Shown: positions 9,123-64,000 of the stretch, one piece after another | How positions within the stretch are numbered: position 1 is the stretch's first letter | Layout: every line of letters begins with the position of its first letter | From: an uncultured Clostridia bacterium | GTDB lineage: Bacteria; Bacillota; Clostridia; UBA1381 | Direction of reading: 5' to 3' | Length of the DNA: 64,000 bases | NCBI GenBank assembly: GCA_947631085.1 | Contig: CANRJY010000001.1 | Span: 124,001 to 188,000, forward strand | Program-made: the position numbers and the translations under genes | The notes under the pieces: model-generated | The model's input: the letters and a program-made list of their open reading frames with translations, nothing else | What the model was told of the DNA's origin: nothing | Databases searched by the model: none

Positions 9123-11123
9123 CTATGTTTGAATTGTGAATATCTCCGCCAGCGGTTCCGTAAAATTCCCGTCGTCCGCCCGCCATACGAACACTTTTTC
9201 CGATTCGGATATTTGGATATCGTTGACTTCAGCCTCCGCTCCGCCGTCAAAGCTGACCGGATATATTTTTATTCCCGTCATCGTCCCGTCGGGACTGTAT
9301 TCCGCCTTCAGTACCGCCGCCTCCCCGATCTCAGGATCGCCGGAAAACAGCTTAAGCGTATTTGACACGCTGTCAAACGAAAGCGTAACCTTTGTATTTT
9401 TCGAAGGTAATGTCGGCGTGGGAGACGGAGCTATTGTAGCTTCCGCCTCAGCGGTCGGCTCCAAGGTTGGTTCCGGCGTCGGAGTCGGTTCATGCGTTGG
9501 CTCAGAGGTTGGTTCTGCCGTCGGGGTCGGCTCCAAGGTTGGTTCTGAGGTTGGTTCTGAGGTTGGTTCTACCGTCGGTTCTGCCGTCGGGGTCGGCTCC
9601 GAGGTTATCTCCGGTGTTGTAGTCGGCTCAAGCGTCGGCTCCAAGGTTGGTTCCGGCGTCGGAGTCGGTTCAGGCGTTGGAGTCGGTTCCGGTGTCGGAG
9701 TCGGTTCAGGTGTTGGTTCAGGTGTAGGTATTGGTTCCGGCGTTGGTGTTGGTTCAGGTGTAGGTATTTCCGTCGGCTCCGGTGTTGGAGTTAATGTCGG
9801 CTCCGGCGTCGGTACCAATGTCAATGCGGCATACGCGTTTAAGCGTCCTCCCGTCTGCGTTTTACCCTGAAGCGTTTCCAATGTGTCCGCGCTTTTTTTA
9901 AGTCTGTCGATAATTTCGGCAGGCGTTATATCGGGATAACGCGCTATCATAAGCGCGGCTGTGCTTGCTATAAACGGACATGCCATAGATGTACCGCTCT
10001 CGTATTTATATGACGCCGCGCCGCTTTTTTCCACATATGTACTCATTATCTTTTCGCCCGGGGCAGCCATATCCACTGTGTTTGCACCGTAATTGGAAAG
10101 AGTAGCAAGTGTGTCATTTTTACTCGTAAACGCAATAGAGATCACATTATCATAGTCATACCCGCCCGGGTATACCGGATATTTATCGTTATTCGATCCC
10201 TCATTTCCGGCGGCTCCGATAAAAAGCGTACCTGTACATTCTTTTATAATATCTTCAATGCTTTTCGATAATTCGGGACCGCCGTAGCTGTTGTTTGCTA
10301 TGGGAATATTCATTTTTTGGACATATTTTATCGCCTCATATATGTAGCTTACTTTTGTATTCCCTGCCGAGTTAAAAATTTTTAGCGGTAATATCTTAGC
10401 GCCGCGCGCCAGCGAGGCAACTCCTATCCCGTTATCCGTCACCGCGCTCACTATTCCGGCAACATGCGTTCCGTGTCCGAGATCATCGTTCGGGTTATTG
10501 TCGTCGTCACAAAAATTCCAGCCATGAACGTCATCCGTGAAGCCGTTATCATCGTCGTCTATCCCGTTATCGGGGATTTCATTGGGATTTGTCCATATAT
10601 TGTCCTTCAAATCGGGATGATCCAGAAGCACTCCCGAGTCAAGAGTAGCCACGATAACATCGGAACAGTCGATATTCAAATCCCACACCGCCGGAGCATT
10701 TATCTTTTCAAGCCCGTATTGATTTCCGGATACATATTCCGTGTCATCGGGCAAATCATCAAGAGTATATATGTAATCCGGTTCGGCATAATCCACATCC
10801 GGCATTTCATTAAGCCTTTCAACGGTACGGAGTACATTATCTCTCCCCGGTTCTTCAAGAGTAAGCCTTAGGACGCGTTTTTCCGAGGACATACTCATCA
10901 GTGAAATTCCGCCGGCATGATTATCGAGATTTTCAACCTTAGCAATCCCGAGCCCGTAAAAGCTCGGTTCTGCCGAAAACAGTCTTACATTTCCCGTCGG
11001 TCTCATCACCGCTATTACAGATGACGTGTCAAATTCCGCCCTGTTGCCGTCAGCGTCCGCATATACGGCAAAGCCGTTGCAAAAGGCGGCAGCGGCAAGC
11101 AGTAATGCAATATACTTCTTCAT
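9123..11123 (-). CDS. Secreted S8 (subtilisin-like) serine protease with Pro/Thr/Glu-rich repeat linker
   Basis: Asp motif VIVATLDSGVLLDHPDL, His motif DDLGHGTHVAGI, Ser motif YESGTSMACPFIAS; signal peptide; tail of TPEPTPTPEPT repeats. Confidence 0.93.
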   Translation of the reverse strand: MKKYIALLLAAAAFCNGFAVYADADGNRAEFDTSSVIAVMRPTGNVRLFSAEPSFYGLGIAKVENLDNHAGGISLMSMSSEKRVLRLTLEEPGRDNVLRTVERLNEMPDVDYAEPDYIYTLDDLPDDTEYVSGNQYGLEKINAPAVWDLNIDCSDVIVATLDSGVLLDHPDLKDNIWTNPNEIPDNGIDDDDNGFTDDVHGWNFCDDDNNPNDDLGHGTHVAGIVSAVTDNGIGVASLARGAKILPLKIFNSAGNTKVSYIYEAIKYVQKMNIPIANNSYGGPELSKSIEDIIKECTGTLFIGAAGNEGSNNDKYPVYPGGYDYDNVISIAFTSKNDTLATLSNYGANTVDMAAPGEKIMSTYVEKSGAASYKYESGTSMACPFIASTAALMIARYPDITPAEIIDRLKKSADTLETLQGKTQTGGRLNAYAALTLVPTPEPTLTPTPEPTEIPTPEPTPTPEPIPTPEPTPEPTPTPEPTPTPEPTPTPEPTLEPTLEPTTTPEITSEPTPTAEPTVEPTSEPTSEPTLEPTPTAEPTSEPTHEPTPTPEPTLEPTAEAEATIAPSPTPTLPSKNTKVTLSFDSVSNTLKLFSGDPEIGEAAVLKAEYSPDGTMTGIKIYPVSFDGGAEAEVNDIQISESEKVFVWRADDGNFTEPLAEIFTIQT
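9408..9822 (-). repeat. Degenerate (PTPEPT)n-encoding tandem repeat inside the S8 protease gene
   Basis: Repeated ggcgtcggttccggtgttggagtcggttc-type units on the + strand, translating to P-T-P-E-P-T on the - strand. Confidence 0.85.
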
Positions 11124-61780: not shown

Positions 61781-61845
61781 ATTGACATTTGCGCCGATCT
61801 ATAATACAATATAATCATCAAATAAACTTAAAAGGAGAAAAAAAT

Positions 61846-62118
61846 ATGGAGGACAATATCATTATTTTAGAGGACGAGCACGGCTGCGAAATAGAGTTTG
61901 AGACAATAGACGTATTCGAGCTTGACGGCGTTACTTATTTTGCGCTTTTGGAGGTTCTTCCCGAGGAGGAGGAAAACGACGAGGTTCTTATCATGCAGGT
62001 TGAGGGCGATATCGACAGCGAGGAAGCCGAGCTTGTAATGGTTGAGGACGAGGACCGGCTCCAGGCGGCGTTCAACGAGTTTCTCCGCCGTGACGAGGAA
62101 GCGTTAAATCAGGAATAA
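61846..62118 (+). CDS. DUF1292 family protein (YrzB-like)
   Basis: MEDNIIILEDEHGCEIEFETIDVFELDGVTYFALLEVLPEEEENDEVLIMQVEGD; AAAGGAG Shine-Dalgarno. Confidence 0.92.
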   Translation: MEDNIIILEDEHGCEIEFETIDVFELDGVTYFALLEVLPEEEENDEVLIMQVEGDIDSEEAELVMVEDEDRLQAAFNEFLRRDEEALNQE

Positions 62119-62217: not shown

Positions 62218-62430
62218 AACAAAACTTAATAAAAATCCCTGAGATTTCGCGTATTTAGGTCTTTTTTTTACCAACACATCTTATAAGGGATGCCGGCTCC
62301 GGCTGCGGCGTATACGCCTCCGTTTCTTCGGAAATGCCAGTGGACATATAATGCACTCGGGCGGCGACCCACCTGCAATAGCAGGTAGAAACTCGACCTG
62401 TTATAACGGTTATCTTGGGGTTTTGTTTTG
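62218..62430 (+). ncRNA. ssrS: Probable 6S RNA
   Basis: TATAAT at 62206-62211. Closing stem CCCTGAGAT...ATCTTGGGG (9 pairs with wobbles). 6S-like 5' arm CCCTGAGATTTCGCGTATTTAGGTC and 3' arm CCACCTGC-aata-GCAGGTAGAAACTCGACC. Confidence 0.68.
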
Positions 62431-62480
62431 CAAAAAGCGGTCAAGCCCGTACATAACCGTTATTTTATGATATTCCACTT

Positions 62481-62519
62481 ACAAAAGAGCGTATCAGTGA
62501 AAATGATACGCTCTTTTGT
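62481..62519. terminator. Bidirectional terminator
   Basis: ACAAAAGAGCGTATC-N9-GATACGCTCTTTTGT. Confidence 0.88.
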
Positions 62520-62560
62520 TGTTTGTTTACTTTTTATATTCCAAGCTTTAACGAATTTAA

Positions 62561-64000
62561 TCAATCCGGATAATATATATAATTGGGCTGCGCATAGATT
62601 ATAACATCCAATTCGCTTAATTTCCTTATCGCGTCAATTACCCTTTTGCGGCTGCCGTTATTAAGCGTCAGAAGACATGTCCTGTATTTTCGCCCATTGT
62701 CATACTGCGGGTTTCCGCTGCTGAACAAGAAACGGCATTCGCGCAAATTAAGCTCCGGCAGCGTTTTATTGAAATAATCGAGGTAATAGCCGCAAAAATC
62801 CTCCGTAACAGAATCGTCGTCATATATACCGACAATTATTTCGTCCGTTTCAAATTCGTCTCCCTCGTATGGGTCATCGTATGTAAATATCCGATTTTCG
62901 GCGAGCGGTGTCATTGTGCCGAGAGCGTCCCATACGAACGCTTTTATACTTGCTATCGGCGTATCGGACTTTTGAATATTCACGCCGCAGGAAAAACTCG
63001 TGCCTGTCGGTAAATCGGCTTTTATGTAATTCATGCTCGCAAGCGCGTTGTTTTCGTCATATGCCGCGACGATAAAATGATCCTGCCCGCTGCGTTCTGC
63101 AATTTTTGTAACGTCCATATCCACTATAAAGCTCGTACTGATCGGGATTTCGTCGTATTCCTCACCGCTTGCTGAAACGAGCCTTAATGAATTTATCGTG
63201 TACGGATATGTTTTTGGATTTACCTCCGTAAGCTGTACGACATTGTTTTCGCCGTTCACAATTATGTAATTGTAGTTGTCGCTGTGGAAATACTCACTGT
63301 AATCTTCGCCGTTTGCGCCCGTCACGCTTATCGGGTTGCCTATTGTCGGCACAGCCTCGGTGCTTACGCAGATATACGAGCCTTCCCAAATCGGCTCGGC
63401 TATCGTAACGGTTCGCCCTTCCCTCAGTTCGAGATTGCAGCTTTTTCCGTCCGCATTCATATTAGCGCCTATAGTCATTCTGCCGCCGATTTTAAATTCG
63501 CTTGACACGCGTACGGCGCTGTCACATCTGTTTGCGGATATAATGCAGTTGCGCAGCTCCACCGGAGATATGGCGTTAAGCGCGTGTGAGCCGTTATTGC
63601 CGGCAAGCATACAGTTTTCCAAAAGGACGTTTCCTCTGCTGTACAGAAAGATCCCGTTGCCGTCGTCGCCGACCGCGTTTATGTTATACATTTCAAACAT
63701 ATTGTCCGACGCGATAAGCATACTGCCTATTATCGTTCCGCCCTCAATCGGTATGTCGCCGTTTTCCTCGTCGAGCGTCCATAACCCGTCCTCGCGGGCG
63801 CTGAAGTTGTGGACGGTATCGGTACAATCGGTAAGTCCGCAGTTGTCACAGGCGGGCGTCGCGGTCAACGCTACGGTGCCTGTGCCGATGTTTTGTATAA
63901 TATGACCGTTCAGACAAATATACACTCCGTCAATAATATTCAGACTGGTTGACGTTACAATGTCATTCGTGAGATAATAATATCCCGCCTCTTCCGGCAG
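62561..64000 (-). CDS. Secreted beta-helix-like protein with C-terminal S8-prodomain-like module (5' end outside window)
   Basis: Frame has no stop up to the window edge (LPEEAGYYYLTNDIVTSTSLNIIDGVYICLNGHII...). Repetitive NCML/NCII strand motifs; C-terminus RKRVIDAIRKLSELDVIIYAQPNYIYYPD. Confidence 0.75.
   Translation of the reverse strand: MPEEAGYYYLTNDIVTSTSLNIIDGVYICLNGHIIQNIGTGTVALTATPACDNCGLTDCTDTVHNFSAREDGLWTLDEENGDIPIEGGTIIGSMLIASDNMFEMYNINAVGDDGNGIFLYSRGNVLLENCMLAGNNGSHALNAISPVELRNCIISANRCDSAVRVSSEFKIGGRMTIGANMNADGKSCNLELREGRTVTIAEPIWEGSYICVSTEAVPTIGNPISVTGANGEDYSEYFHSDNYNYIIVNGENNVVQLTEVNPKTYPYTINSLRLVSASGEEYDEIPISTSFIVDMDVTKIAERSGQDHFIVAAYDENNALASMNYIKADLPTGTSFSCGVNIQKSDTPIASIKAFVWDALGTMTPLAENRIFTYDDPYEGDEFETDEIIVGIYDDDSVTEDFCGYYLDYFNKTLPELNLRECRFLFSSGNPQYDNGRKYRTCLLTLNNGSRKRVIDAIRKLSELDVIIYAQPNYIYYPD

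Follow-up and report, generated by a model that had tools for sequence, protein, structure and literature searches.

The window analysed here is a stretch of 64,000 nucleotides, bases 124001-188000 of contig C1 in a Clostridia assembly (G000) of 2.55 Mb that is 83% complete. All sequences compared in this study were assemblies of uncultured bacteria. The close public relatives presumably live in the rabbit gut, judging by the label 'Lapin' on MAGs of uncultured Clostridia. The features of interest are a gene encoding the protein P0003, which runs off the window, and a resident S8 protease gene in the same window:

9123..11123, minus strand: resident S8 protease, 666 aa (Pfam)
10755..11045, minus strand: N-terminal prodomain of the resident S8 protease, homologue of the C-terminal module of P0003 (BLASTP and profile comparisons)
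62478..62520, minus strand: terminator hairpin behind the stop of the module gene (AAAAGAGCGTATCA..TGATACGCTCTTTT, shuffle z = -5.6)
62561..62869, minus strand: C-terminal S8-prodomain-like module, residues 741-842 of P0003 plus stop; 102 aa, ending ..AQPNYIYYPD
62564..62590, minus strand: last strand and tail of the module, Q94-P-N96-Y-I-Y-Y-P-D102; the protein ends at capping position +6, which is P1 in real prodomains
62870..63214, minus strand: Ig-like C-terminal domain with the cassette joined at its end (similarity and inspection, no Pfam match)
63215..64000, minus strand: beta-helix-like part, running off the window (weak match to PF13229, E = 0.0033)
G000:C1:188978 or 189089, minus strand: start of the module gene, frame read past the window; 188978 is the ATG of MKKRL, with a signal peptide by inspection

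The module gene extends approximately 1 kb beyond the window edge. Counted from the first ATG, its frame comprises 842 aa; the alternative start, the ATG of MKKRLVSLITAAVMLICAVYIAPMSAGA, gives 805 aa, and there we recognised a signal peptide by inspection. The encoded domains are, in order, the signal peptide, a module of about 270 residues, the beta-helix-like part, the Ig-like domain, which is the common end of many secreted proteins in the family, and the C-terminal module of 102 residues. Judging by the signal peptide, P0003 is probably secreted. We did not detect an S8 catalytic domain in the complete 842-aa frame. The sequence-only reading had placed a prodomain-like module at the end of a non-protease secreted protein and had advised extending the gene upstream, in case a catalytic domain lay there in permuted order. 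Its coordinates and strand for the last 102 aa plus stop were right, and the extended frame contains no S8 domain in permuted or any other order.

The N-terminal module of P0003 (residues about 70-340) had no Pfam match. The same module of about 270 residues, again without a Pfam match, is shared with a repeat protein of the same genus (L005 2562-5090, and L032). PrcB-like repeats were suspected by eye in this module and could not be confirmed, and one weak PADLOC match to AbiEi in the N-terminal part was taken as chance. We also observed a 6S RNA at 62233-62425 on the plus strand (RF00013, 65 bits vs cut-off 46.4), located between the gene of a small acidic protein (61789-62118) and the module gene.

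Direct BLASTP comparison showed that the last 40 residues of the module were 38% identical to the end of the resident S8 prodomain (E = 1e-6 in this single comparison). The resident S8 protease was the only real second match of the module in the whole genome (E = 0.007); weak matches on contigs C13 and C30 (a RecN-like protein; a frame with stops) were dismissed as chance. Further, we built a profile, A2, from five C-terminal modules alone, namely that of G000 and those of G029, G022, G075 and G071, which were respectively 95%, 92%, 57% and 36% identical to it. When 95 genomes of the order were searched with A2, 17 other places were found (E from 4e-8 to 6e-4). All 17 were N-terminal S8 prodomains directly upstream of DSG/DTG-HGTH motifs, one of them (L060) in a frame cut short. 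The reverse search with a profile of S8 prodomains only (A3) returned four of the five C-terminal modules (E = 6e-10 in the own genome, then 2e-9, 4e-9 and 2.6e-6), and hhalign matched A2 with A3 at E = 1.4e-13 over 96 columns. On the strength of these profile comparisons we conclude that the C-terminal module and S8 prodomains share common ancestry. The alignment by eye of the last ~100 residues with the S8 prodomain of the window, from which the sequence-only reading had started, is thus borne out by the A2 matches and the hhalign value.

Pfam and NCBIfam put no name on the module, and its match to PF22148 was below threshold (E = 0.094, 13.6 bits vs cut-off 21). We do not take this as evidence against homology, because Pfam misses the genuine S8 prodomain of the window altogether. 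Sequence searches of the PDB with profiles of the module or of the S8 prodomains gave chance matches only, and a scan of IMG/VR for the module found nothing. The A2 match L060 belongs to a set of shortened S8 frames (213-327 aa) that end within or soon after the start of the catalytic domain: L060/L090 (G014), L111 (G426), L112 (G202) and L122 (G253). These may be broken genes, assembly errors or frameshifts.

Across the C-terminal modules and S8 prodomains, conservation was best in the last helix, the last strand and the A-x-P-[ND]-Y-I tail, that is at the end facing the protease, and the first half of the domain was poorly conserved. A poorly conserved first half would fit a ferredoxin-like domain of prodomain ancestry that has been re-used outside proteases, for example as a structural cap, for ligand binding or as a varying surface antigen. 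The same comparison argues against such re-use, since what is best preserved is the protease-facing end, and we regard it as unlikely.

The sequence-only reading had proposed structure prediction as a check. AlphaFold, run on the five C-terminal modules without any S8 sequence, returned a prodomain topology rather than an unrelated fold, with a mean pLDDT of 86.8. The predicted elements of the module were E5-16, H25-36, E42-47, E60-69, H74-85 and E90-98, with the last three residues disordered. In this prediction from C-terminal modules only, they follow the beta-alpha-beta-beta-alpha-beta order of the ferredoxin-like fold. A control prediction of the genuine S8 prodomain agreed in strand order but lacked the first helix and had lower confidence. 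Foldseek against the PDB returned generic ferredoxin-like folds whether the query was the module or the genuine prodomain, so the fold search cannot discriminate. Three entries of the A. fumigatus alkaline protease prodomain were among the top 50 Foldseek matches of the module, and we did not count them as evidence.

The propeptide of subtilisin BPN' ends at Y77. In Tk-subtilisin the last residue of the propeptide chain is L69, which is D63+6, and residue 70 opens the mature chain. Residues E69 and D71 of the BPN' propeptide cap two helices of the enzyme, and their equivalents in PfSUB1 are E209 and D211, with the tail ending at D217 (PMC6993865). The capping equivalents in the module of P0003 are Q94 and N96, and the protein stops at D102, six residues past N96. 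The distance to the natural C-terminus was +6 after QPN in G000, G029 and G075 and after RPN in G022, and +7 after QPD in G071. The C-terminus therefore lies at the P1 position in four of the five modules. Judged on length, the tail would suffice for the S4-S1 subsites, as it has the same +6 end as Tk-subtilisin, BPN' and PfSUB1. It looks like the tail of a pre-cleaved inhibitor, as in stand-alone inhibitors, because the protein ends exactly where real prodomains are cut. The capping pair itself, acidic in type (E-x-D/N), has become Q-x-N in three modules, Q-x-D in one and R-x-N in one. The first capping residue is usually Glu in the S8 prodomains analysed here and Gln in the C-terminal modules (Arg in G022), which we counted against inhibition. 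Some genuine S8 prodomains of the family have Gln or Ser at this position, too.

Prodomain-like modules were also detected in other proteins lacking a protease domain. Two genomes of another genus of the class, G375 and G443, encode secreted proteins consisting of a signal peptide and a prodomain only (L118 1288-1758 and L123 1345-1722), and no S8 remnant was found downstream of either gene. Both proteins end at +6 (..EPDYIAHIN and ..EPNFICHIC), and one of them exceeds the cut-off of PF22148 (28.4 vs 21 bits). A prodomain-only gene was present in 2 of the 11 genomes of that genus. A dockerin-like frame, named by eye, adjoins L123 on the other strand. In G033, a CotH-kinase protein (L104 1291-3195; PF08757, E = 2.6e-30) carries a prodomain-like module at its N-terminus. 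Overall, relatives of the prodomain were rare (21 of 391 class genomes and 2 of 399 phylum genomes sampled, E <= 1e-5).

The variety of carriers bears on the question whether the module may be a docking or targeting element, which would bind S8 proteases or another partner without blocking it and so, for example, recruit a protease or mark the protein for processing. The module closes off modular secreted proteins whose other domains differ (beta-helix, GLUG-type repeats), much as an adaptor would, the changed capping Glu could weaken inhibition, and in the CotH-kinase protein a free P1 end is unavailable. Docking, however, would not need a C-terminus at P1, yet four of the five modules have one, as do the two free-standing relatives. 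We consider docking possible, though rather less probable than inhibition.

We compared the module loci between genomes. The cassette fills the approximately 310 bp that separate the Ig-like domain from the stop codon. At one conserved locus within one genus it was absent, of type 1 or of type 2. In G071, G073, G074 and G075 the flanks of this locus, comprising 900 bp upstream of the cassette and the 529-700 bp past the stop that could be aligned, were 90-96% identical, while the modules of G075 and G071 shared only about 50-56% DNA identity. G073 and G074 lack the cassette, and their frame stops five codons past the point where the Ig domain ends and the cassette would be joined. In G029, one paralogue has the module and one does not. 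The modules of G000 and G022, which belong to different genera, were 96% identical in DNA (dS 0.07), whereas the adjoining Ig domains were 81% identical (dS 0.85) and the flanks were unrelated; upstream, the G022 protein is a different, GLUG-like repeat protein (named by eye). These comparisons of aligned loci indicate that the module moves between genomes as one unit, as an exchangeable cassette, which the sequence-only reading had no means of seeing. The hairpin at 62478..62520 also follows relatives with and without the module, including related genes at non-syntenic loci, and this long terminator hairpin, with its AGAGCGTATCA arms, possibly serves as right-hand homology for the exchange.

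Fast, swapped variants at one locus whose flanks are 95% identical would be expected equally of a varying surface antigen or receptor part, which is a further point for re-use outside proteases. The module could also be an accidental, functionless fusion left by recombination with an S8 gene. Of about 30 Ig-domain genes listed for the family only 5 have it, and close relatives that lack it at the corresponding locus show no visible cost. Against this, all five modules cluster together in the tree (support 97/96) and are not nested among resident S8 prodomains, whose deep branching the tree did not resolve. The frames are intact in five species, the module has spread between genera, and several host proteins carry it with one defined end position. 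We judge accidental fusion to be improbable. A swapped cassette that ends at the cut site of a prodomain suggests instead a bolt-on protease inhibitor.

The module does not appear to track the resident enzyme. In three genomes the C-terminal modules were 92-95% identical, while the catalytic domains of their resident S8 proteases were 54-55% identical, which does not support co-evolution of the two, and the partnership with the resident protease implied by the sequence-only reading is weak. All five genomes with a C-terminal module hold an S8 protease of the matching prodomain type, compared with 21 of 70 genomes in the family (hypergeometric P about 0.002, calculated by hand and confounded by kinship). 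The earlier suggestion of a chaperone, here one acting in trans on a subtilase without its own prodomain, finds a precedent in clostridial CspB prodomains, which fold their protease in trans (PMC3567191). What speaks against it is that each of the four S8 genes detected in the genome already encodes an N-terminal region ahead of its catalytic domain. One S8 gene may be missing from a genome that is 83% complete; even so, we hold a chaperone role to be very improbable.

SUB1-ProM of Plasmodium and the inhibitors of MEROPS family I9, namely POIA1 of P. ostreatus, the yeast proteinase B inhibitor and SPI-1 of Arabidopsis, inhibit subtilases in trans. The module resembles them in having a prodomain fold without a protease domain and a natural C-terminus at or near P1; its own inhibitory activity is predicted. 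As in I9, the prodomain-like domain does not come from an enzyme precursor, and it has related stand-alone genes in L118 and L123. The known systems are eukaryotic and stand-alone with little similarity to propeptides, whereas the module is bacterial, forms a C-terminal cassette of large secreted proteins and keeps recognisable homology to S8 prodomains. With Fervidolysin-type S8 prodomains (PF22148) it shares the element order, and reciprocal profile searches and profile-profile comparison relate it to the local ones. It differs from them in its C-terminal position with no catalytic domain following, in scoring below the Pfam cut-off and in the change of the capping Glu to Gln or Arg. The prodomain of clostridial CspB, which also folds its protease, acts in trans with its last residues blocking the active site (PMC3567191), as predicted for the module by analogy; it derives from its own protease by autocleavage, and the module does not. 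Prodomain-type subtilase inhibitors detached from an enzyme have been described mainly in fungi, plants and apicomplexans (PMC6993865), and we found no bacterial fusion of this kind in the open-access papers searched.

We propose, with about even confidence, that the module is a captured S8 prodomain serving as a product-like, family-I9-type trans inhibitor of extracellular subtilases on an exchangeable C-terminal cassette. The natural C-terminus at P1 and the free-standing relatives favour this reading, as do dN/dS values of 0.18-0.5 among the three close copies, though these have few changes behind them. The beta-sheet of the module would dock on a subtilase at its two surface helices, and S4-S1 would be filled by the free tail Y99-Y100-P101-D102 with no cleavage needed. 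This would shield the host protein, or the region to which it is bound, from subtilase attack. The target may be the resident S8 protease or, more likely, proteases met in the gut community, since the spread of the cassette does not follow the resident enzyme. A subtilase may simply degrade a propeptide that is not cognate to it (PMC10580911), which counts against inhibition.

More tentatively, and with considerable doubt, gut Clostridia may pass round the prodomain cassette, varied at one locus, as a swappable shield in an arms race against the subtilases of other microbes. As the module is small and has a defined end, the claim of inhibition can be tested by trying a single purified domain on a set of proteases. 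If it is true, bacteria would gain a modular means to control or resist subtilases, by way of a 310-bp cassette on large secreted proteins.
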